Source of the DNA: Syncephalis plumigaleata
Lineage: Eukaryota; Zoopagomycota; Zoopagomycetes; Zoopagales; Piptocephalidaceae
DNA: 64,000 nt
Reading direction: 5' to 3'
NCBI GenBank assembly: GCA_025201365.1
Contig: JAIXMF010000002.1
Location: forward strand, 496,001 to 560,000
In this document: piece after piece, positions 1,589-33,301 of the stretch
How the letters are laid out: each line of letters begins with the position of its first letter
Position numbering within the stretch: the first letter of the stretch is position 1
Translations under genes and position numbers: made by a program
The notes under the pieces: model-generated
The model's input: the letters and a program-made list of their open reading frames with translations, nothing else
Told to the model about the DNA's origin: nothing
The model's database searches: none

Positions 1589-2745
1589 TATTAGTAAATG
1601 ATAAATTGAATAAACCGTGAATGATCAGTAAACCATACGCATATCTAGTTTATACATAATACTGCTGCTGCTGCTGCTGCTAAGTGATTATACAACTAGT
1701 TCTATTCACTATAATACATGTATGTTGAGCCAACTTAATGGAACAGCAGGATTACTACAAATAAATGATTGCAAGCACACTTGACTACTAAATAAGTAAA
1801 TCATCAATAGATAAACGAGATCATCTAATCGCTTAAAGTGATAAAACACAGACTGCCTACCGAAATGGAGACACATCACATTGACTACTATAGTTAGTCA
1901 GAATGATCTACTATAATGTATAATGGCGGCGATAAATAGGTAGATGTAACACACGTACATACTGCATACATCTCACGCAGCCATGTGCCATAGCCATGGA
2001 TCTTCTATGAGAGATGTTTATCAGTTGTTTGATCGAATCAGCAATCGCTTATTATTGTGGTTATCATCACCGCACAACAAATAATATCTGGTATATATAC
2101 ACCCATACACATGTGATAAACCTCTCGCTACTCCTTTCCTTCCTTCTCTCCCCCTTAAATACCGGTTCTCCAAGCTACTACTACGTGTAAACTTTACGCT
2201 CGTTTATTGCTTGCCTTCTAATTTGCACCATAATTGCGTTTTACCTTTAATGCGACCCTTGTGATTATAAGCAGCAATTGACTGATTACTACTGCTGGTG
2301 GCATGACTATAAAAAGCAAGAATCAACCTATATAGCCTGTTTGTTTATTCGCTATCACTACACTGTTAGGCCTCTATTCTCGACGAATGCCTATGGTCAG
2401 CAATAGCCATTACACTCGTCGATAACGCCGTCAATCATATTATTCACGCTTATTATTTCGCGAACAAGTGAGTAAGCGAGCGAGTGAGCGAGCAAGTGCT
2501 CCATTATCTATTGTGGTAAGTAGTAGTGGTGGTGGTGGTAACGGAATATAGTCTCTCGCTACCTAGTAGCTTGCTCTCTCGCTGTGTGTAGACAAGTCAA
2601 ATAGTGACGATATTATACGGCTTGGCTTAATGATAATGAGACAGATAGATAGATAGCATTGCTAACATAATATAAACAGTATCATCTAGTTTTGTTTGTT
2701 TGTTTCCTTTGTAGCTATTCGTTCGTATCAAATACACGTACAATA
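1589..2745. other. intergenic; promoter and 5' UTR intron of the kinase gene
   Basis: No gene is supportable here. A (CTG) repeat of nearly seven units lies at 1662-1681. A TATAAAAAG at about 2308 may be the promoter of the kinase gene. The leader probably contains an intron from GTAAGT at 2516 (an alternative GTGAGT donor lies near 2468) to a pyrimidine-rich acceptor ending TTTGTAG at 2714, 31 bp before the ATG at 2746. Confidence 0.5.
1662..1681. repeat. (CTG)n microsatellite
   Basis: A perfect CTG trinucleotide run of about 6.7 units in the 3' flank of the small secreted protein gene; noncoding on the strands examined. Confidence 0.9.
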
Positions 2746-4653
2746 ATGTGGCGCATATCTCGTCAATCCGTTTCAAATCCCATTTACCTTCATTATCATG
2801 CTGGCGGTAGTCGGCAATCATGTCGTGGGATTATGCGCAGTGTTGCCCAGGCAAACTTTGCACGTGTTTCCTTACGTGGAACTGTAGCGGATCGCAATGG
2901 ATCCGACGATCACGTTGATTCAGTACTGCCGCCCATGTCAGCATTCGCCTCGCAACAAGTGCCATCCAAGCCTGGAGCAGGATATGAGCAACACGATAAA
3001 GCGAACAATCATAGACAACCATCAGTGTCGCAATCCCTACTAGGCTGGGATGGTAATAGCAACATTGGCGAGAGTAATGTAGATGCATCACCGTCTAATA
3101 CTGCATTAGAATCCAATCAATCTGTACCAACAACAGCAACAGCAACAGCAACAAGTAGTAGTAGTAGTAGTAATAATGGCAAGAATCTGAGATGGAGTAA
3201 CCTAGCAGCAGAAGCAGCTGCAGCAGACTCAGCAGCTCGTCAACACTTTTATCGCAATCGTGTATTGGAACGCTACGCCGATCAACCTGTTCATCCCGTG
3301 ACCATTCGTCAATTGGTCTTTTTCGGTCGCACACTCGATGAAGACAAGCTTATACGATCGGCCAACTACGTGCGTACAGAGATTCCCGTACGTCTAGCTC
3401 ATCGAATTCGCGATTTTCAACGACTACCCTACATCATTGGTGTTAATCGACATATTGCCACGGTGTACGGTCTTTACTGGAAAGCATTCGATGCATTTCG
3501 TCGTATGCCACCCGTTCGAACTATCGCCGATAATGAAAGCTTTTGTCAACAGGTAGAGGAGATGATTCAAGAGCATCTTGTCGTCATTCCACAACTGGCT
3601 ATGGGTGTACGCGAGTCGCGTAGCTACTTCCAGAATGGAGATGCCGATCGATTCATGAACGCCTCTCTACGCAGCCGTGTATCTCGTCGTGTGCTTGCCG
3701 AACAGCATTTGGCACTTACACGACAATTCCACGAGGAGGGAGGAGCTGCACCCGATGGTCGCTACATTGGACTGGTGGATACACGCTGTCGTGCAGGACA
3801 ACTAGTGGCGCGTTGTGTTCGTACAGCGGGTAAACTTACACGGCAGGAGTTTGGTCTGCCGCCACCTTCACCGCCACCATCAACTGCCACGCTAAGTACA
3901 ACATTCCATAGCACGCACGAGGATGTGGATGACTTTGGTTACGAGAGAAACACGCCATTCACGCATGCCATTCGTTATCGTAATTCATTGGGCGGACTAA
4001 TCGGTGTTAGTGCAGCAGACATAGCAGCAGCAGATGCAGACGCGGAAGCCGAAGAAGCTATGCGTTTCTCATGTGGCGACAACTTGCTACTAGCCGATGG
4101 TCATGGCAATACAAGTGATGGACAAGTTCCGCAAATTATCGCTGATGGCCATCTGTCAACGGTATTTGCCTGTATTCCAGATCACGTCGAATACGCTTTA
4201 CACGAGCTACTGCGTAATTCAATGCGAGCAACTCTTCAGAAAAGACAAGAGGCAATGAAGAAGGATCCGTCATTGGCGAAGATCCCGTTAGCTCCCATTA
4301 GAGTGACGGTAGCTGAAGGTCCAGCCGATTTGATATTCCGTGTATCAGATCAAGGTGGCGGTATCAATAGCAATGATTGCGCGAGGCTCTGGCATTTTGG
4401 CAGCGACGGATTCCGTGCATTCGAAACGGTTCCAGAACTGGCCGGTAAAGTAGGCGAGGAGGCAGCACGTCCGAACGTTCGCCTAGGTATCGGCCTACTA
4501 ATGGCGCGTGTCTACGCCGAGTATTGGGGCGGTGGTCTTGATCTTCAAAGTATGCCAGGTTGGGGTGTGGACGCACATCTAAGAGTGAGTAAGCTAGGCA
4601 ATCGTCTCGAGAATCTAGGCGAACACCCCGAGGCTTACGCTAGCATGTCATAA
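2746..4653 (+). CDS. mitochondrial BCKDH/PDH-kinase-family protein kinase
   Basis: An uninterrupted 635-residue frame. Kinases of this family phosphorylate and inactivate the E1 subunit of mitochondrial 2-oxoacid dehydrogenases (pyruvate or branched-chain). The N-terminus (MWRISRQ...) is basic and presequence-like. The helical regulatory domain runs from about residue 180 (RQLVFFGRTLDEDKL; RIRDFQRLPYIIGVN). The GHKL ATPase domain starts near 470: N-box HELLRNSMRAT near 485, G1 box SDQGGGI near 533, G-rich lid RLGIGLLMARVYAEYWGG near 580. The N-box wording resembles BCKDK more than PDK, but the substrate cannot be settled by eye. It is longer than the usual 400-450 residues because of Thr/Ser/Ala-rich low-complexity inserts around residues 90-165 and 365-440. 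The start was chosen as the first ATG after the likely 5' UTR intron; a frame continues upstream only through intron sequence. Confidence 0.88.
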   Translation: MWRISRQSVSNPIYLHYHAGGSRQSCRGIMRSVAQANFARVSLRGTVADRNGSDDHVDSVLPPMSAFASQQVPSKPGAGYEQHDKANNHRQPSVSQSLLGWDGNSNIGESNVDASPSNTALESNQSVPTTATATATSSSSSSNNGKNLRWSNLAAEAAAADSAARQHFYRNRVLERYADQPVHPVTIRQLVFFGRTLDEDKLIRSANYVRTEIPVRLAHRIRDFQRLPYIIGVNRHIATVYGLYWKAFDAFRRMPPVRTIADNESFCQQVEEMIQEHLVVIPQLAMGVRESRSYFQNGDADRFMNASLRSRVSRRVLAEQHLALTRQFHEEGGAAPDGRYIGLVDTRCRAGQLVARCVRTAGKLTRQEFGLPPPSPPPSTATLSTTFHSTHEDVDDFGYERNTPFTHAIRYRNSLGGLIGVSAADIAAADADAEAEEAMRFSCGDNLLLADGHGNTSDGQVPQIIADGHLSTVFACIPDHVEYALHELLRNSMRATLQKRQEAMKKDPSLAKIPLAPIRVTVAEGPADLIFRVSDQGGGINSNDCARLWHFGSDGFRAFETVPELAGKVGEEAARPNVRLGIGLLMARVYAEYWGGGLDLQSMPGWGVDAHLRVSKLGNRLENLGEHPEAYASMS

Positions 4654-13515: not shown

Positions 13516-16500
13516 TCAAGGTTGTCGGAAGCGGCGAAGAGTGGATCGTAGTTGGCTTGGTCGAACGACAGGTATCATTTGTTGATATTCATGGTATGGT
13601 TTAAGTCTGTCGACGTGAACGATATCGAAACTCTTACCATCCGATATAAGGTAAGTACCGGGGTGTAATAAACGAATGACTTTGTACGGTCCATCATACA
13701 AGTTAGTGAATTTTCCGCTTGATGATACCATTACCCGTAATAAAACCTCCGTATTTGGTTGGAAACAACGCGGTTGAACCGTTCGATCGTAGCGAATCTT
13801 CTGACGTATCTGTGCAATTCGCGTATTCTCTTGAGCCACTTCTCGTAACTTCGGTAATTCGTACTGAATACTTTGTAAACGCTGATCGTATTCTTCTTCG
13901 GAATCAATGAAACTATTCGTATTCAACGTCCACACGGCTGGCGTTTTGAGCTCATAACCATATAACAAACGACTAGGGGTAAACTTCGTAGTAGCACTGG
14001 TCATGGTGCGAATAACTAATAAAGCTTTCCATAAATCTACATCCCATTGTAAATTGCCGTTAGTCAGTTTAGTTAGCTGCTCTTTCAATGTTCGATTTAA
14101 CCGTTCTACTTGACCGTTCGCTTGTGGTCTATAAGCAGTAGTAGGAGTATGATGAATTCGTAAATACTTAAAGAATTCGTCGGCTAAATCGCTCGTGAAG
14201 TCGGCTCCTCGATCCGTAATTAACTGCTGAGGAACTCCATATAATGCCACAACATCTTCTATTAAGAAACGAATGACCGTCTCAGTGGTGATATCCTTGG
14301 TAGCTCGAGCAATAGGCCATTTAGTGAAGTAATCGATAGCTGTCAAAATATATCGATTTCCGGACGTACTGATGGGGTTGATGGGTCCCATGGCGTCAAC
14401 ACCGAGTAATTGGAATGGATAACTGGAACTGATAGAATGCATAGGTTCCTGTCTAATGGCCGTCGTAGTATTTCGCTGGCATATGTCGCATCCTTTTACT
14501 ACTTCTTTTACGACTTTGTATAAACCGATGCCGGCGAAACGCATCTTCACACGTCTCCATGTATTTTCGACACCATTGTGTCCTTCATTATGTATCCTTG
14601 CTATTTCCTCGTGAGCGTTATGCTCATGTAATACTTCCTTTTCCTGATTATTGATAACTTGATACAATTTATCATCGATAACCTTATACTTTCCTGCGAT
14701 TCTTCGTAATCGCTTTCTTTCAATTTCCGTGGCGTTGGTAGGATAAACCATTTTGTTCACATAATCTCTAGTTGCGTTATAGAAGGTGAATGACATTGCA
14801 AATAGGTCGGTATGCTGTTCCATAGGAGCTGGATGTCGAGATAAGTAATCGGCCGGGTTTATCTTGCCTTTGATATGTTCGATGTCGTAGTCGTATTCCA
14901 TTAACATTAATTGCCATCTAGCTAGTCGACCGGTGAGTGGTTCTGACGTCTTAAATAGCGATAATAATGCAGAGTGATCCGTTTTAAGCGTAAATCGTCG
15001 TCCATACAGGTAATGTCGGTAATGCTTTACAGCCCATATGACGGCGAGTCCTTCCAGGTGGGTGGGACTATAATTGCTTTCGGCTTGACTGAGACTACGG
15101 CTAGCATAAGAAATAACAACTTCCTTCTGATCGGGCAACCGTTGTTGTAGGATTGCTCCAAGACCTCGTCCCGATCCATCTGTAGTTAAAACAAAAGGTA
15201 AGTTCCAATCTACAAATCGTAGAATAGGAGCGTTAGCGAGTTTGGATTGCAACGTTTGAAACGCTTCTATTTGATCTTCATCCCACGACCAGGGCGTATT
15301 CTTCCGCATTAATCGATTTAATGGGCGTGATATAGTTGCAAAGCCTTCCACAAAGCGTCTATAATAACTGGCCAGGCCCATAAATGATCTAACTGTCGTA
15401 ACGTTAGTAGGTGGTTTAGCATGTATAATCGCATCGATTTTGTTCGGGGTGGGTGCTAAACCATGAGCTGAAATTCGAAAACCTAAATATTCCAGTCCTT
15501 GATATCCAATGAAGCATTTAGTGGGAGATAGTTGAAGTTGAACTTTTCGGCATCTATCGAGGGCTATTTTTAGATGTTCCAAATGTTCGTCCACATTCTT
15601 CGAGTAAATAATAATGTCGTCAATGAATACTATGACGTTTTTCCATAACATATCAGCGAACACACGTTCCATCATGCGTTGATACGTTCCAGGGGCGTTT
15701 GCTAGACCGAAAGGCATAACTAAAAAGCGGTAAAAGCCTCCACCAGGGATTGCAAAAGCCGTTTTGTCGCGATCGTCTTCCGTAGCCAAAGGGACTTGCC
15801 AATATCCAGAACGCGCATCGAGTGTTGAGTAAACTGATGATCCACCTAAGGCGTCCATGATTTCGTCAATTAAAGGTAAGGGATACTTATCCTTTCTAGT
15901 GATTGCATTTAACTTTCGATAGTCGACACATAGACGTAATCCACCGTTCTTCTTTTGAATGGGCACAAGTGGAGCACACCAGGGTGATTGTGCTTCTTCG
16001 ATTACGCCACTTTGCTTCATCTTCTCGATTTCTTCTTTGATTTGACGTAGCATTGCTTGTGGTACACGGTAAGGTCGAATTCTTACCGGCGAATGATCTC
16101 CTGTATCAATCGAGTGCGTTGCTGCGGTTGTACGTCCTAATTCCTCGATTTCCTCTGCGAAAACATCCTTAAAGTCGTCAACTACCGCTTGTAACTGGGC
16201 TCTGTCGTCTTCCGGTAACGGTTGATAAGCAGTGGTTGGTGTAGTGACTGCGAGTCCAAACAGATCGTCCGGGTCCATGATATCGAGATCTGCATCGTTT
16301 CCTGAATCGCTCTGACTGTTCACGGCAGTTACTCCTTCATTTTGTACACTGAAATGTTCGAATAAGGTTTCAATGCTAGCGGTATCCGTTGGAGGCGTGT
16401 CTGGAGCGGCAAATACGGGAGCGTCCTCTAATAGGGGGTCGATATCGTCGTACTGCTGCGTATTCATGGGAATTTCCATTGTTATACCATCCTTTCGATA

Positions 16501-18057
16501 AATTAACTTGTTTTGAATGATATCTGGGGTAATGGAATTTCTCTTCATCCAGTCGATACCTAGAATCAGTAGATGACCTGTTCTTTCGAATACAATGATA
16601 TCCGCGGGTAAAGTGAGGGGTCCAATACTTATGGGTAAGTCTTTCACCATATGCCGGGGAGTATGTCGTTGTCCATCTGCGGTGACCAATACTCGATCAA
16701 CGCGGTGTCTAGGTCGTATACCTAAGTGTGAGACCAACGCAGGGCTGATCACCGAGCTGGCAGCTCCAGTATCGATAATTGCCATTACTTCTATACCGTT
16801 GATGATTACACGTCGTCGAGCTGAAGTGTAATTGTGACCAATTTCATCATCAAGATTGTTGGCATCCATCTCACGTCGTAAAGCTCGTGCTAACTGTTGT
16901 CTGATTGCCGGTGATTGGTAAATCAGTTGTGCAATCGAGATATTTGCTGGCGTCGAACGTAGTTGATCCTCAATCTTGTACGCATTTCTGTCTGTCTCCA
17001 AATTTAGATTAGGAGGCATTCGTGGTTGCCGGGGAACTCTTGCAGCCACATTTCCTTCTTTCGCTGCGGGGGCTTTCCTTCGTGGTACATCCTTCGCTTG
17101 TACCGTTGGTTGCGCAACGTGTGTTGTTGGTACCGTCTGTTCTTGGATATCCATTTCCATATCGGTAGCAACGGCTTTTCTAGCGTTCTTCCTTGTAGCG
17201 GGAATAGCTATATCTCGTTCTTTCCTCTTTCCTAAGGGGAACAAATCATCTTCATTAGCATCGTTATCTAATAGATTCAGATTTTCTCCTTGTCTCTGGG
17301 GACATTCTCGGGCCATATGTCCTTTGCCTTGACAATTGTAACATCGTCTTTCGCTGAATGAACGCTCATTGTTTCGTTCCGTGGGTTTGTTCTTTTCTTG
17401 TACCATGGCTTGTATCATGTTGAGCGACATTTCTTGAAATCGCTCCATTAGACGTTCCATGCTGGTTTCGAGAGACTGACTCTTGCTTTCTTCGCTCTTG
17501 GTCCGACCAATTAACGCTGGTTGGTCGTAGGATGCCTTGATACTTGGTAAGATATCCTGCGCTTCTAAATCAAGACTTTCTTCTCGCAGTAATAACTCCT
17601 TGGCTCGTCGGTATGTATTTGGACCTTCCTTTCGAAATTCACGCTTGTACTCCGGTCGAATAGCTTGAGCTAGTAATTCCAACTTGACCTCGTCGCTTGT
17701 AATTTCCGCACGCTTGATCAGGCTATCCAATGTGGTGAGTAGCTCGTCGATGGATTCTTCTTTTCCTTGACGATACGAGAAGAGCTGCCTAGTTGCATGA
17801 TGTTTATAGCCAACGGTAACATATTTACTACGGAAGGCATTCTCGAATTCTTGCCAGGTCGTAGTCACTTCTTCGATGGATTCATACCATGCCTCGGCCG
17901 TCCCTTCTAAGCTGACTCCTGCCATTGCGATTGCTTGGTCGTCGAGCCAATTGTTTGCACGTTTGATCTTCTTGAATCGGCTCAGCCATTTCTCGGGGTC
18001 TTCACTCTTGCGTCCTCCGAAGGTAGGGGCTTCCATACATCCGATCTTGCCGTCCAT
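13516..18057 (-). CDS. Gag-Pol polyprotein of the Ty3/Gypsy element
   Basis: A single 1513-residue frame. The Gag-like N-terminus has WLSRFKKIKRANNW and AEAWYES, then one CCHC zinc knuckle at about 239-252 (CYNCQGKGHMAREC). The aspartic protease DTGAASSVI is at about 429. Reverse transcriptase runs from about 650 to 830, with DYRKLNAITRKDKYPLPLID and the FIDD catalytic box near 811. RNase H follows (TDGSGRGLGAIL), then integrase with an HHCC zinc region and a DDE core (LGVDAMGPI; LITDRGADFT). Gag and Pol are in one frame, as in several Ty3/Gypsy families. There is no C-terminal chromodomain. Confidence 0.95.
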   Translation of the reverse strand: MDGKIGCMEAPTFGGRKSEDPEKWLSRFKKIKRANNWLDDQAIAMAGVSLEGTAEAWYESIEEVTTTWQEFENAFRSKYVTVGYKHHATRQLFSYRQGKEESIDELLTTLDSLIKRAEITSDEVKLELLAQAIRPEYKREFRKEGPNTYRRAKELLLREESLDLEAQDILPSIKASYDQPALIGRTKSEESKSQSLETSMERLMERFQEMSLNMIQAMVQEKNKPTERNNERSFSERRCYNCQGKGHMARECPQRQGENLNLLDNDANEDDLFPLGKRKERDIAIPATRKNARKAVATDMEMDIQEQTVPTTHVAQPTVQAKDVPRRKAPAAKEGNVAARVPRQPRMPPNLNLETDRNAYKIEDQLRSTPANISIAQLIYQSPAIRQQLARALRREMDANNLDDEIGHNYTSARRRVIINGIEVMAIIDTGAASSVISPALVSHLGIRPRHRVDRVLVTADGQRHTPRHMVKDLPISIGPLTLPADIIVFERTGHLLILGIDWMKRNSITPDIIQNKLIYRKDGITMEIPMNTQQYDDIDPLLEDAPVFAAPDTPPTDTASIETLFEHFSVQNEGVTAVNSQSDSGNDADLDIMDPDDLFGLAVTTPTTAYQPLPEDDRAQLQAVVDDFKDVFAEEIEELGRTTAATHSIDTGDHSPVRIRPYRVPQAMLRQIKEEIEKMKQSGVIEEAQSPWCAPLVPIQKKNGGLRLCVDYRKLNAITRKDKYPLPLIDEIMDALGGSSVYSTLDARSGYWQVPLATEDDRDKTAFAIPGGGFYRFLVMPFGLANAPGTYQRMMERVFADMLWKNVIVFIDDIIIYSKNVDEHLEHLKIALDRCRKVQLQLSPTKCFIGYQGLEYLGFRISAHGLAPTPNKIDAIIHAKPPTNVTTVRSFMGLASYYRRFVEGFATISRPLNRLMRKNTPWSWDEDQIEAFQTLQSKLANAPILRFVDWNLPFVLTTDGSGRGLGAILQQRLPDQKEVVISYASRSLSQAESNYSPTHLEGLAVIWAVKHYRHYLYGRRFTLKTDHSALLSLFKTSEPLTGRLARWQLMLMEYDYDIEHIKGKINPADYLSRHPAPMEQHTDLFAMSFTFYNATRDYVNKMVYPTNATEIERKRLRRIAGKYKVIDDKLYQVINNQEKEVLHEHNAHEEIARIHNEGHNGVENTWRRVKMRFAGIGLYKVVKEVVKGCDICQRNTTTAIRQEPMHSISSSYPFQLLGVDAMGPINPISTSGNRYILTAIDYFTKWPIARATKDITTETVIRFLIEDVVALYGVPQQLITDRGADFTSDLADEFFKYLRIHHTPTTAYRPQANGQVERLNRTLKEQLTKLTNGNLQWDVDLWKALLVIRTMTSATTKFTPSRLLYGYELKTPAVWTLNTNSFIDSEEEYDQRLQSIQYELPKLREVAQENTRIAQIRQKIRYDRTVQPRCFQPNTEVLLRVMVSSSGKFTNLYDGPYKVIRLLHPGTYLISDGKSFDIVHVDRLKPYHEYQQMIPVVRPSQLRSTLRRFRQP

Positions 18058-24474: not shown

Positions 24475-25299
24475 TGGAATTATCAGTAGAATGACTGCCG
24501 ATATGGGCACTGCCAATGGTAAGAATAGTAATAGTAATAGTAAATAATAATAGTAGTTGGTAGTGACAGTGACAGTAATTATATGAGAGTTGGAAAAAGG
24601 AAAGAAATCAATGATTTGTAGGAGCAAACGTCGTACATTTGACCTCTCTCTCTAAGCAAGTAGAAATATGCCATCATTTCAGTTATATTACTCATTATTA
24701 TTATATATTTATTCAATAGATGATTGATATTCATGTAATGAACATGCTAATATAATCTAGTTGGATGTAAGCCAATCCATAGCATGATGATGCCAGTGTA
24801 TTATGGCAATTACCAATAGCAACGCATGTGTGATTATTGATTCATTGAATTGAACATGCTCATCAATACTAGGTTGGCTTGAATAAGTACCTTTCTCGTA
24901 ATAAGGGCACCATTAACAGTAAACGGTCTCGTGCAATGTTTTATCCTTGCCTTTAGTGGACCACTTGCAATCGAAACATTACTACACCAAAGTAGGATGA
25001 AATAATAGGCTTGCATATACACATCATAAATAAGAACAAATACTTTAGCGGTTATTATACTGGTAATGCCAACCCACACGTGTAGTCGGAATTATTCCGT
25101 TAGTAATACAGGTTTTGTAAATGAAACATTGTTATATCCGATAGAATAGAAGGTTGACAAGTCAGAATCGTCGAGACATAAATAGAGACGACAGCATTGT
25201 CATTTTACTTGCATCAACCATCAGCCTTCAAGCATCTTCTCTCCCTCTCTCCCTCTCTCACTGCTCTACCTTTAGTTTCTTCTTGATATCAGGAATATC
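24475..25299. other. intergenic; start of tandem duplication and promoter
   Basis: Upstream of AP-2 mu this is A/T-rich. From 24773 on it is the upstream part of the first duplicated unit: about 400 bp closely matching 26626 onward, an ATAAATAG box at 25178-25185, and a CT-rich tract (about 25236-25285) just before the ATG. Confidence 0.6.
25178..25185 (+). promoter_or_regulatory. TATA-like box, kinase-like gene copy 1
   Basis: ATAAATAG 122 bp before the ATG, conserved at the same place in copy 2, followed by a CT-rich initiator-like tract. Confidence 0.45.
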
Positions 25300-26503
25300 A
25301 TGCGTTCACTACTTCAGCAAACGACATTGGCGATAACCGCAGTATTGGTGCTGATATCATGCGCCACGCAAACACAAGCAGTTGATGGCGAGCTGGAAGG
25401 TACTATAGCAATCTAAATATCTGTTCAATTCTAATACAAATACATATTTATAGGAGATGACAATCCACTTTCGTACGGTCGTCAATTTATGGATCGAGTA
25501 GCAGCAAGTAATGGACTGTCAAAACCAGTGTGGTATAAAGGTGGAAGGAGTGATCTTAGCTTTGCCACAGTCGTATACAATAATAATCAGCCTGGGTTCC
25601 TGAAATGCACCTTTGAGGGGGGTGAAAAAGCAGCATTTACTGTGAGTATAGTAAATGCCATCTGTTCTACCACTACTTACATTCGTATAAAAGAGACTTG
25701 AACTTGCTCGAGAGAATCTTAAAGGAATCAATGTGGCATATCGTAATTACGTGGCATTACCAGTGGGAAGCGTCCCAGTTCCTGAGTCTGAATCACCATC
25801 CAAGCAGGCAGGAAACTGTTTCGTTTACCGCTTCGTTAATGGCATAAAACTGCGGGATTACGCTCTCATGAAAAACTACGCAGATCGACTTATTGCTTAC
25901 AATCAAATCATGCCACAAATACTCAAGGGTAAGCTATTTATCTATGCTATCTAATGCATACGCTAACTATTTCATAGGCTCTATTTACCTCTATAATGCT
26001 GGCATTATACATAAGGATCTGAGTTCAGCCAGTAAGTATTATTAAGTTGTATCATGCCTATCTAACGTGTAAATGTAGATATTATGGTTTACGGACAAAC
26101 CCCCGAACAATTATCCGCATCTATAATTGATTTTGATATGATAGGATTGCTTCCGGATACTAAAACACCACTAGTAGCCAGTATTTTATCACAAGGAGTC
26201 AACCCCAGTACTACCGGTTCTTATTTATGTGATGGCTTTAATAAAGCACCTCTCAAATATATCTTAAGCAGCGTTAACAAGGGCATTGTGTCGAATCCAC
26301 AAATGAACCCCAACCAAATACGTAGGACGGTAGCGCAGCGCATACAACAAACTGATGCTTTCCAGCATCAAAACAACGATCCAAGATTGGCTAAAGCCAT
26401 TGATGCCTATATTTCATTGGCTGAAATATCTAAAATACTCTCAAGTAGTACAGACTGTACTGGCCTTATGATTGCATTAACCACTGTATACGGTCCTCGC
26501 TAA
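25300..26503 (+). CDS. secreted kinase-fold protein, copy 1
   Basis: Exons 25300-25399, 25454-25641, 25694-25928, 25978-26031 and 26079-26503 join in frame to 333 residues. The N-terminus is a signal peptide (LAITAVLVLISCATQTQA). The body has the landmarks of an atypical protein or small-molecule kinase: a Gly/Ser strand-loop GGRSDLSFATV, a lysine strand PGFLKCT, a Glu-bearing helix RLELAREN, a hinge-like CFVYRFVNG, the catalytic loop YNAGIIHKDLSSANIMV (HxDxxxxN), and a metal-binding IIDFDMIG in place of DFG. Asp and Asn of the catalytic loop and the metal Asp are all present, so activity is possible. The substrate is unknown. A secreted kinase-like protein in a fungus suggests an effector or extracellular role (inference). 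The neighbouring copy shares nearly identical introns but a much-changed protein. Confidence 0.8.
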
Positions 26504-27149
26504 AACCTAATTGAAATAATTGACGCGTTATTTTCATACTAGCATATTAGCATTGATTACAATGATAATCATTAATTGCTATTACTTTTATGATCGGAAT
26601 AAAGCTACAGTTTTAATAATTCAAACAATCCATAGCATGATGATGCCAGTGTATTATGGCAATTGTCAACAACAACGCATGTGTGATTATTGATCCATCG
26701 AATTGAACATGCTCACCAATATTGGGTTGGCTTGAATAAGTACCTTTCTCGTAATAAGGGCACCATTAATAGCAAGCGGTCTCGTGCAATGTTTTATCCT
26801 TATCTTTAGTGCACCACTTGCAATCGAAACATTACTACACCAAAGTAGGATGAAATAGTAGGCTTGCATATACACATCATAAATAAGAACAAATACTTTA
26901 GCGGTTATTATACTGGTAATGCCAACCCACACGTGTAGTCGGAATTATTCCGTTAGTAATACAGGTTTTGTAAATGAAACATTGTTATATCCGATAGAAT
27001 AGAAGATTGACAAGTCAGAATCGTCGAGGCATAAATAGAGACGACAGCATTGTCATTCTACTTGCATCAACCATCAAGCATCAAGCATCTTCTCTCCCCC
27101 CTCTCTCTCTCTGCTCTACCTTTAGTTTCTTCTTGATATCAGGAATATC
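26504..27149. other. intergenic between the kinase-like copies
   Basis: 3' flank of copy 1, a 77-bp unique spacer (26549-26625), then the duplicated promoter region of copy 2, with ATAAATAG at 27031-27038 and a CT-rich tract before the ATG. Confidence 0.6.
27031..27038 (+). promoter_or_regulatory. TATA-like box, kinase-like gene copy 2
   Basis: ATAAATAG 119 bp before the ATG, matching copy 1. Confidence 0.45.
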
Positions 27150-28353
27150 ATGCGTTCACTACTTCATCAAACGACATTGGCAATAACCGCAGTATTCGTG
27201 CTGATATCATGTGTCACACAAACACAAGCAGTTGATGGCGAGCTGGAAGGTACTATAGCAATCTAAATATCTGTTCAATTCTAATACAAACACGTATTTG
27301 TAGGAAGAGATAATCCAAACTCGTACGGTCGCCAATACATGAATGGAATAGCAGCAGCAAGTAATGGGCGGCTACAACTGGAGTGGCTTGGTGGTGGAAG
27401 GAGTGATCTTAGCTTTGCCACGGTCAAATACAATAATAATCAGCTTGGATTTATGAAATGTACCAAGGAGGCCGATGAAAAAGCAGCATTTACTGTGAGT
27501 ATAGTAAATGCCATCTGTTCTACCACTACTTACATTCGTATAAAAGAGACTTGAACTTGCTCGAGAGAATCTTAAAGGAATCAATGTGGCATATCGTAAT
27601 TACGTGGCATTACCAGTGGGAAGCGTCCCAGTTCCTGAGTCTGAATCACCATCCAAGCAGGCAGGAAACTGTTTCGTTTACCGCTACATTAATGGCGTAA
27701 AACTAGAGGAGTACAATGAAGATAAGGACTACGCAGATCAGCTTATAAGCATGAATCGAGTCATGCCACAAATACTCAAGGGTAAGCTATTTATCTATAC
27801 TATCTAATGCATACGCTAACTATTTCATAGGCTCTATTTACCTCTATAATGCTGGCATTATACATGAAGATCTGAGTTCAGCCAGTAAGTATTATTAAGT
27901 TGTATCATGCCTATCTAACGTATAAATGTAGATGTTATGGTTTACGGACAAACCCCCGAACAATTGACTGCATCTATAATTGATTTTGATATGATAGGAT
28001 TGCTTCCACCTAATAAACCGCGCATAGAAGCCAATATCGTACCAAAAGGGATCAACCCCGGTTCTCTCGGTGATTACTTCTGTAATAGCTTTAATATGGC
28101 ACCTCTCAACTTCATTCCAGGGGACGTTTTACAAGGTATCGTGACTAATCCACAAATGAATATCGACCAAATACGTGGGATGATAGCGCAGCGCATACAA
28201 AAAATTGATGGTGTACTGCCTTCAAGTCAAGTGAAATTAAGGAAAGCCATAGATGCTTTTATTTCACTGCGTCAAGTAGCTACTATACTCTCAAGTAGTA
28301 AAGACTGTGCTAGCCTTTTGGTTGCATTAAGTTTAGTATACGGTCTTAACTAA
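27150..28353 (+). CDS. secreted kinase-fold protein, copy 2
   Basis: Exons 27150-27249, 27304-27494, 27547-27781, 27831-27884 and 27932-28353 give 333 residues, the same length and intron positions as copy 1. The signal peptide (AITAVFVLISCVTQTQA) is kept, as are GGRSDLSFATV, the lysine strand LGFMKCT, the catalytic loop IIHEDLSSANVMV and IIDFDMIG. The residue before the catalytic Asp is Glu instead of Lys. Changes concentrate in exon 2 (QLEWLGGG against PVWYKGG), the end of exon 3 and the C-terminal lobe, where about two in five residues differ, while landmark motifs and cysteines are mostly retained. Both copies therefore look like functional proteins that have diverged in surface or substrate-facing parts. 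Confidence 0.8.
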
Positions 28354-28598
28354 ACCCAATTGAAATAAATTGACGCGTTATTTTCATACCAGCATATTGT
28401 GTGTGTGTGTGCCTGTATAGTCAAGTCGAGGCAATGATCAAATTGCGTTCCAAGTAATCCGATTTCACATTTGAATCTCGCGTTTCTCCTATCGTTTAGT
28501 GTACAATCACAACCGCACATTGATCGTTCATCTATAATTGAATCCACTTACTTATTCGCTTGTTTGTAGTAGCTGTTAACCTTATTGGAATAGTAGCA

Positions 28599-31500: not shown

Positions 31501-32876
31501 GACTATACCCGGTGCTTGGATTAATCTTGCGCATGCCTACGCGGCACTTGGCCAATCTATGGAAGCGGTAAACATGTATGAAACGTGCGCTCGTCGTTTC
31601 CCTAGTATGGCCAGCGATCCACAATTATGGCTATGTGCGGCCAATCAATTGTACCGAGCAGCTCGTATTGAGAATGATCCACGCATGATGAAACGAGCCA
31701 TACGCTACGTGCAAAAGGTGTGATGATGCTTGTTCAACTAGCATGCTATTGCTGTTGCTGATACTGATTGTATTCTACGTGCTATTAGGCTTTATACATG
31801 GAGCCGGACAATCTTATGGGATTGTATAATCTGGCGCTTGGACAACAAACCTATGCCTATATGGTGGGAGATTTGGAAAGTGAAAAGAGAACGGTTGACA
31901 TGCTAGTGGAGGCAGCTGCAGGACTAGGTCATGCTAAGGGGTAAGATGATAAAGTGTTGCTGTAAAATTGCCATAATAGGGTGCAGTTATTGACCAATAT
32001 GCGATTATATGATAATACAGTCTATTCCAACAACTGGCCACCTATCCGGGCCAGGATGACCAACTGCCATATTCGCGTAAAATAGCCGATCAACGTCAGA
32101 AATACGGTGACTCGCTTTTACGCCGTATCCAAGAACGTCAACAACATCAGGCTGAATGGGAGGCAGAGCGTAATCGTGTTCTTAGCAACGCTTTAGCAGC
32201 GCGAGAAGAAGCGCGTCTAGCCAAGGAGGCGGCCATCGAGAAGGAACGACGTGAACGCGAGGAAGAAGAACGACGCATTGAGGAACTCAATCGACAAATT
32301 CAACAACAAGCCCTTATGGATATGCGCTTGTTAGATGAGGCCGAGATAGAAGCTGAGGCAGCAGAGCGTAGCCATAGTAGTGACGGTGAAGAAGGAGAAG
32401 AAGGCGGTAGTGGCACGCGAGCCAAGCGACGACGCAGTACACATGGTACTGGTAATAAGAAGCGTCAAAGGAAGACATCTAAAGAGCCGACATCATCTCG
32501 CGCCAGTGATGCTGATGATAGCAGCAACAACAATAACAACAACAACAATGAGTATACTGCTCAGGTAGATGACAATCGTCTAGAAGAGTTGGAAGAGGAA
32601 TTGGCACGGCAAGAGGTAAATATGCAATAATACTAGCCAAGACATTGCTAACAATATATGATTTAGAAGTTGCAAGCTAGTTTTAATCAGTATAACAATA
32701 GCAATAACGAGAAGCAAGAAGAGGAGAAGGAAGAGGAAGAGGAAGAATCTATTGCTACATCATCACGGCGTCGCGGGTAAGTTCTAGAATATAATGATAA
32801 GTTTGTAAATGGTATTAATAACGATTGTGCTTATAGATTGTCAGGAGCCATCATAGAAAGTGAAGAAGACGAGTGA
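28599..32876 (+). CDS. CTR9: CTR9, Paf1 complex TPR subunit
   Basis: Scaffold subunit of the Paf1 complex, which travels with RNA polymerase II and promotes H2B ubiquitylation and H3K4/K36 methylation. The N-terminus holds VIELPLNRPGEYIDISCDEL, a CTR9 signature. About fifteen exons then encode serial TPR repeats: ARLLYGKKQYSMALEIYQRI, GNWTEATSYYKRSSQLAPNN, NLAALEYQTGDMSVAHTNLQ, GAWINLAHAYAALGQSMEAV, LYMEPDNLMGLYNLALGQQT. A long charged helix follows (RREREEEERRIEELNRQI), then a Lys/Arg and acidic Ser/Asn-rich tail ending ESEEDE. Start: ATG at 28599, just after TTGTAG, so a 5' UTR intron is possible. All junctions checked stay in frame with no breaks. YME1 follows on the same strand. Confidence 0.93.
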
Positions 32877-33301
32877 ATGCTTTTTATTTACATGTTGCTG
32901 CTGTTACTACGTTATAATATACTATTTCATTGATTGTGACTCTGAAATTTTACATGCATCTCTTTCGGAAGGATACGGATATTGGCATTGATGCGCATGA
33001 ATGGTCAATTTAAATGTGATATGATTACACACATTAATCTGTCAATTAATCATTTTAGTAAATTACAAATAGTTCGAATAATCTCAAAAAGTTTATTCCC
33101 CCCTCCTTTTATTGCTTTCTTCACAAGTACTACAAACTACTGATTAGTGAGAAAGCAAACAGTAGTATTATTATAAATAGCTATCTATTTACAAGTAGAC
33201 GGTTGTTACCGAGGGAGTGGCAACCAGTAGTAACGATCTGAATATAGGACGTTTCAGTTGAATCTATCGTCTAGTCTAATACGCGAATACGTTAGTGCCT
33301 C
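32877..33301. other. intergenic; YME1 promoter
   Basis: CTR9 3' flank and YME1 promoter/leader, A/T-rich. No gene or TATA box that I would call. Confidence 0.5.

Follow-up and report, generated by a model that had tools for sequence, protein, structure and literature searches.

A tandem pair of kinase-like genes in Syncephalis plumigaleata whose alike and divergent tracts are likely kept by gene conversion and selection

The gene pair and its tracts

The window, which is the whole stretch of 64,000 nucleotides analyzed here (Syncephalis plumigaleata contig JAIXMF010000002.1, positions 496,001 to 560,000), carries two kinase-like genes, A and B, which form a direct duplication with a spacing of 1.85 kb. 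Each gene consists of five exons separated by four introns, placed alike in the two copies, and the products correspond to two deposited S. plumigaleata proteins, P0001 and P0002. The features of the duplicated unit are as follows.

25300..26503, + strand: gene A, 333 aa, exons 25300-25399, 25454-25641, 25694-25928, 25978-26031, and 26079-26503; letter-identical to P0001
27150..28353, + strand: gene B, 333 aa, exons 27150-27249, 27304-27494, 27547-27781, 27831-27884, and 27932-28353; letter-identical to P0002
26626..27149, + strand: 5' flank of B, a repeat of 24773-25299, 25 of 524 positions different
26518..26548, + strand: low tract 4, the last similar stretch past the stop codon of A, partner 28368-28398, 1 of 31 positions different; the detected repeat ends here

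Elsewhere in the window, a 1,513-codon frame on the minus strand (13516-18057) represents a Ty3-type retroelement with gag, protease, reverse transcriptase, RNase H, and integrase domains, and a frame on the plus strand (2692-4650) is BCKDH-kinase-like and has a relative in Syncephalis fuscata that is 93% identical over the best-aligned third.

An exact count of the differences between A and B agrees with the estimates of an earlier note, which had been made by eye from the sequence of this locus. Introns 1 to 4 differ at 3/54, 0/52, 1/49, and 1/47 positions, which sums to the 5 of 202 that had been given, with intron 2 identical. Exons 1 to 5 differ at 6/100, 40/188, 28/235, 2/54, and 103/422 positions, the last being 24% of the exon 5 bases, and the protein segments encoded by exon 5 share 56% identity across residues 193 to 331, as expected from the two in five changed amino acids that had been claimed. 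The strong change reported for exon 2 and toward the end of exon 3 and the conservation reported for the flanks are likewise borne out, the 5' flank differing at 25/524 positions and the 3' flank at 2/41 before the similarity ends.

Both products score above the cut-off of 23.1 bits for PF07714 (A, 24.1; B, 25.4) and just under the cut-off of 31.7 bits for PF00069 (A, 30.6; B, 31.0). Residues K84 (beta-3), D188 (HxD), N193 (catalytic loop), and D210 (DFG position) of A are also present in B, and both proteins retain the kinase-loop motifs HxDLSSAN and IIDFD that had been noticed earlier. A and B share the Hanks-type fold and the motif residues with the protein kinase superfamily (PF00069/PF07714), but they differ from it in scores that lie at the family cut-offs, in a DFD in place of DFG, and in their short length of 333 residues and predicted signal peptide. 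The N-terminus of both proteins, as judged by eye, is hydrophobic and highly conserved. A and B are predicted to be secreted and to phosphorylate something, the variable segments would set what they bind, and the family may act on the fungal hosts of this mycoparasite.

A two-state hidden Markov model (HMM) segmentation of the A/B alignment divided the unit into seven tracts, four of them low (3.5% different) and three high (28.7%), with 2*dlnL = 168.7 for the two-state versus the single-rate segmentation. One tract border lies in intron 1 and one 14 bases 3' of the stop codon; the others interrupt exons 2, 3, and 5.

24773..25440, + strand: low tract 1, comprising the 5' flank, exon 1 (predicted signal peptide), and most of intron 1; partner 26626-27290; 31 of 665 positions different
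25441..25622, + strand: high tract 1, covering the bulk of exon 2 (N-lobe, residues 34-90) together with the 13 bases of intron 1 that precede it; partner 27291-27475; 43 of 182 positions different
25623..25832, + strand: low tract 2, comprising the end of exon 2, intron 2, and the start of exon 3; partner 27476-27685; 0 of 210 positions different in this haplotype
25833..25907, + strand: high tract 2, within exon 3 (residues 143-168, the hinge and the next helices in the model); partner 27686-27760; 28 of 75 positions different
25908..26154, + strand: low tract 3, running from the end of exon 3 through intron 3, exon 4, and intron 4 into the start of exon 5 (catalytic loop HxDLSSAN, IIDFD); partner 27761-28007; 8 of 247 positions different
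26155..26517, + strand: high tract 3, from residue 218 in exon 5 to 14 bases past the stop codon (activation segment and C-lobe); partner 28008-28367; 106 of 360 positions different

Of the 620 bases in the high tracts, 593 are coding, 13 belong to an intron, and 14 to flank; the coding portion amounts to 59% of the coding bases of A, and the low tracts hold the other 409 of 1,002 (41%). All three differences in intron 1 fall at its 3' end, among the 13 bases that belong to a high tract. The contrast drawn in the earlier note between alike introns and changed exons is therefore right in its figures, but it is a contrast between tracts, since low tracts hold so much coding sequence and the end of intron 1 belongs to a high one. 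When the three high tracts were placed at random, as much coding sequence was rarely covered over the unit (p = 0.002), and as little intron was rarely covered from start to stop (p = 0.008); over the whole unit, the latter p value is only 0.083. Among 15 segmented pairs, which are not independent of each other, introns take up less than their share of the high tracts in 9 pairs, more in 4, and an equal share in 2.

Silent change and tests for selection in the pair and the family

By the Nei-Gojobori method, dS between A and B over the whole gene is 0.255 and dN is 0.197, such that silent change is as high as replacement change and dS is about 10 times the intron divergence. The pairwise maximum likelihood (ML) estimate of omega is 0.84 over the whole gene; restricted to the high tracts, it is 0.90 (p = 0.64), and neither value differs from 1. 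Codons with an unchanged residue show a silent difference in 21 of 105 cases in the high tracts, compared with 2 of 98 cases across low tracts 2 and 3 (p = 3e-5); with exon 1 added to the low tracts, the count there becomes 5 of 129 (p = 1e-4). The silent changes track the tracts, and selection on replacements alone after a young duplication is therefore a poor fit, because the silent sites would have stayed as quiet as the introns. The replacement-to-silent ratio between A and B is higher than that between alleles (p = 0.012).

In one reading, close to one offered by the earlier note, the copies are young, as their introns show, and strong positive selection has acted since the duplication on nothing but the exons; the earlier note expected a dN/dS well above 1 in this case. 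The low intron and flank divergence and the family-level site models described below agree with this reading, but dS is about 10-fold above the intron divergence gene-wide and higher still in the high tracts, omega is near 1, and the silent sites themselves form a mosaic, all of which make it very unlikely. As the pairwise omega does not exceed 1, the A/B pair by itself is no proof of selection, and relaxed constraint could also keep such differences.

Spliced alignment yielded 44 models of the family at 40 loci, with fragments included (L013b, L035a, L041a, L047a, and L048a). Clean models, defined as those longer than 250 aa without a frameshift or stop, number 25 of the 44 and form two clades, one kinase-like (15 clean models) and one pseudokinase-like (10 clean models), with haplotig copies included. 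All four catalytic residues are present in 14 of the 15 clean models of the first clade, with L043a being without the Asn. In the 10 clean models of the second clade, the DFG Asp is found in none, the beta-3 Lys in 2, and the HxD Asp in 1, a pattern that points to pseudokinase-like proteins in which the catalytic residues have been lost. Frameshifts or stops occur at L014, L016 to L018, L020, L023, L025, L026, L028, and L030, some of which may be model errors, and the family probably also loses genes. In addition, L019, L025, L027 to L030, L032, and L033 of the second clade have exons 1 and 2 fused, leaving four exons and no intron 1; some of these are frameshifted, and the arrangement suggests a loss of intron 1 within the family, possibly by way of cDNA.

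A total of 88 pairs passed the 25% intron filter, comprising 8 haplotig-like and 80 paralog pairs. In all 80 paralog pairs, dS exceeds the intron distance (median ratio, 2.8); in the 8 haplotig-like pairs, dS and the intron divergence are broadly comparable, with dS being higher in 3 pairs with few changes. Six haplotig pairs were pooled, which leaves out L029/L031 and L027/L032 (8 to 10% intron divergence), and gave 18/1225 intron (0.0147), 29/1374 silent (0.0211), and 36/4695 replacement differences, with an omega of about 0.36. The pooled values indicate that introns are not intrinsically much slower than silent sites and that the alleles are under constraint. They bear on exon-targeted hypermutation, in which coding segments would mutate faster than introns, and for which the joint rise of silent and replacement changes with an omega near 1 and the excess of dS in every paralog pair could be cited. 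Such a process is extremely improbable here, given that 41% of the coding bases of A lie in low tracts, that silent and intron divergence are similar over the haplotig-like pairs, both pairwise and pooled, and that whole tracts share states with a further paralog, C (see below).

For the site models, haplotig copies, L040a, and L044a were set aside in the first clade and L022a in the second, such that 8 of 15 and 9 of 10 clean genes, respectively, were used. M2a was favored over M1a in the kinase-like clade (p = 1e-15) and in the second clade (p = 1e-10). The whole-gene fits placed 11% of the sites of one clade in a class with an omega of 5.8 and 21% of those of the other clade in a class with an omega of 2.8. 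M2a was also favored in six of six exon blocks, each with its own tree (largest p, 0.0018). In simulations under the M1a null, conducted for six of the eight fits, none of 24 replicates reached the observed value in any of them. Twelve of the 14 high-probability M2a sites of the first clade lie within the high tracts, and the divergence peaks are coding. The fits ignore recombination within exons and use fixed branch-length ratios, two first-clade blocks return implausible omegas of 21 and 39, and the first-clade trees are 10 to 18 long and near saturation. For these reasons, the models are read as support for, rather than proof of, positively selected sites in both clades. They also bear on the possibility that A and B are decaying duplicates, with parts of the protein under relaxed constraint and the differences of no benefit, which would suit an omega near 1 in the high tracts and the several family members with frameshifts or stops. 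This explanation is quite unlikely, because A and B are intact in both haplotypes and keep their kinase residues, the allelic omega is about 0.36, and site classes with omegas of 5.8 and 2.8 are found in the family.

Probable conversion between A and B and the search for donors

A second contig of 32.7 kb (C41) aligns collinearly with 13.5 kb of the window at 99.06% identity and carries both genes (here A' and B'), and it is most simply a second haplotype. In window positions 32501 to 33000, the two differ at 15 of 500 positions plus 25 gap columns, several times more than in neighboring bins. Across A, B, A', and B', gene-specific sites number 40 in exon 2, 28 in exon 3, and 102 in exon 5. 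The first part of exon 3, which belongs to low tract 2, has no gene-specific sites, and it contains four sites at which A equals B and A' equals B' while the haplotypes differ; one further site of this kind lies in the high tract of exon 5. Conversion after the haplotypes had split would leave such sites, with the copies alike within each haplotype and the haplotypes different. The opsin-type pattern, in which paralogs outside the divergence peak are closer within a haplotype than alleles are, is found in low tract 2 alone. The sharing in this tract is a mark of gene conversion between A and B, an argument that involves four sites in one tract and depends on the correct assembly of near-identical repeats. 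The haplotype-specific homogenization also weighs against duplication and selection alone. The patchy conversion that the earlier note had offered as its other reading accordingly finds support between A and B themselves, but import from another paralog is only half supported.

A dispersed paralog, C (contigs C212 and C246), is about 81% identical over the unit. On its 3' side, C (L010/L011) stays similar beyond the A unit for roughly 50 bases, across the start of the following duplicated unit (to window position 26676), and C may derive from a tandem array like that of A and B. Sites informative among A, B, and C are clustered (151 runs versus 236 expected; p = 5e-5). Quartet trees of A, B, C, and D (L012) were compared by the AU test. 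The combined low-tract data, consisting of 250 bases of 5' flank, the introns, E3a, and E3c-E5a, support AB|CD, with p-AU < 0.001 for the other trees; taken one at a time, E3a rejects the other trees, but none of the remaining three sets does. Exon 2 supports BC|AD (p-AU of 0.029 for AB|CD), a grouping of B with C that weighs against recent duplication followed by selection. The sharing between B and C starts inside intron 1, and the two differ by 13.3% in exon 2, similar to the 14.7% of their flanks, in a paralog comparison from which L015a was removed by exon length. The exon 5 quartets are not significant, E5b leaning toward A with C (AB|CD p-AU, 0.17) and E5d toward B with C (0.095); for E5d, a 10-taxon tree places A with C, in conflict with the quartet, and the bootstrap labels of this tree, which come from re-rooted trees, were not relied on.

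In genome-wide searches with the second haplotype set aside, exon 2 of A had no long match above 80% identity, and the divergent exon 5 of A or B had none above 75%, with the exception of one stretch of B.

28243..28313, + strand: stretch of 71 bases in exon 5 of B; identity is 86% with both L012 and C and 80% with A

This stretch differs from L012 at 10 of 71 positions and from C at 10 of 71, compared with 46% and 33%, respectively, elsewhere in exon 5, and it is possibly a short shared or converted tract. The check for donors proposed in the earlier note thus returned B exon 2 with C and the 71-base match to L012 but otherwise no close long donor. That note had also set against selection a silent divergence of the exons as high as the replacement divergence and traceable to another paralog; the silent divergence is as described, and the tracing mostly fails. 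After a recent duplication, divergent donors may instead have overwritten exon segments of A or B piece by piece, in which case most of the donors would be gone, unassembled, or present in other isolates. The exon 2 tree, the intron 1 start of the B-C sharing, the flank-like B-C distance in exon 2, and the 71-base stretch with its 86% identity to L012 (54% elsewhere in exon 5) are the points in favor of such import. We regard it as unlikely, because the genome-wide searches gave no other long match above the identities stated, B is equally close to C and to L012 in the 71-base stretch, and random import does not predict high tracts that are nearly all coding.

The simplest account combines conversion with selection. 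Conversion between A and B likely keeps the introns, the 5' flank, the predicted signal peptide, and the catalytic core alike, and selection probably preserves the differences in three segments. Under this account, repeated conversion between the two neighbors would homogenize whatever is free to be homogenized, and old differences would be preserved by selection in the N-lobe, the hinge region, and the activation segment with the C-lobe. Conversions that reach the high tracts would be removed by selection, and these tracts would stay different.

Known systems and the biology of the family

Introns and signal-peptide exons that are more alike than the exons of the mature protein were reportedly described in 1993 for snake venom phospholipase A2, under the term "accelerated evolution"; A and B encode a different protein. 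The best match in the literature searched is that of the primate red and green opsin genes, in which conversion acts in the introns, and a divergence peak lies in exon 5, which carries the functional difference (PMC3924837). A and B resemble the opsins as duplicates with introns likely homogenized by conversion and divergence peaks over coding sequence, but they have three high tracts with 59% of the coding bases, and they belong to a fungal family of about 40 loci that is predicted to be secreted. The Toxoplasma ROPK family, including ROP18 and ROP5, consists of lineage-restricted kinases and pseudokinases, often in tandem, many under diversifying selection and several with predicted signal peptides (PMC3682881, PMC3635977). 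The Syncephalis family likewise appears to mix kinase-like and pseudokinase-like members and to be lineage-restricted and predicted secreted. Syncephalis is a fungus without a rhoptry organelle, however, and the likeness is one of design, a functional analogy with no claim of membership.

A single-sequence search and a profile search with the family gave 9 and 13 hits, respectively, all from S. plumigaleata. As a control, the BCKDH-kinase-like frame was searched against the same database and matched S. fuscata (93% identity over a third of the query) and Thamnocephalis among the best 120 of 354 hits, which indicates that relatives are represented there. At this sensitivity, no family member was found among the S. 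fuscata proteins of the searched database; the short-word and length limits of the search could hide distant members, and an S. fuscata member may be absent, unannotated, or too diverged to share short words. Among the papers searched on Syncephalis kinases and S. plumigaleata, no title or abstract opening concerned this kinase-like family. Syncephalis is described as an obligate mycoparasite, and the same 2018 study of several mycoparasite genomes reports no ortholog that marks the lifestyle across all taxa (PMC6784888). Given the obligate mycoparasitism of the genus, it is reasonable to guess, but no more than a guess, that the family acts on host fungi.

If the account of conversion and selection is true, A and B would allow the effects of conversion and of selection to be told apart, one tract after another, in a single tandem duplication of a fungus, and the borders of the three divergence peaks would point to the protein surfaces under selection. 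The pair also draws attention to a family of predicted secreted kinases and pseudokinases that appears confined to its lineage, within an obligate mycoparasite genus. A more tentative and rather doubtful extension is that the dispersed family serves the fungus as a system for exchanging modules. Conversion would continually refresh the catalytic core and the regulatory parts, the modules of the N-lobe, the hinge, and the activation segment would diversify and pass from one paralog to another, and host fungi would face a changing set of secreted kinases, in the way that Toxoplasma employs ROP kinases against animal cells.
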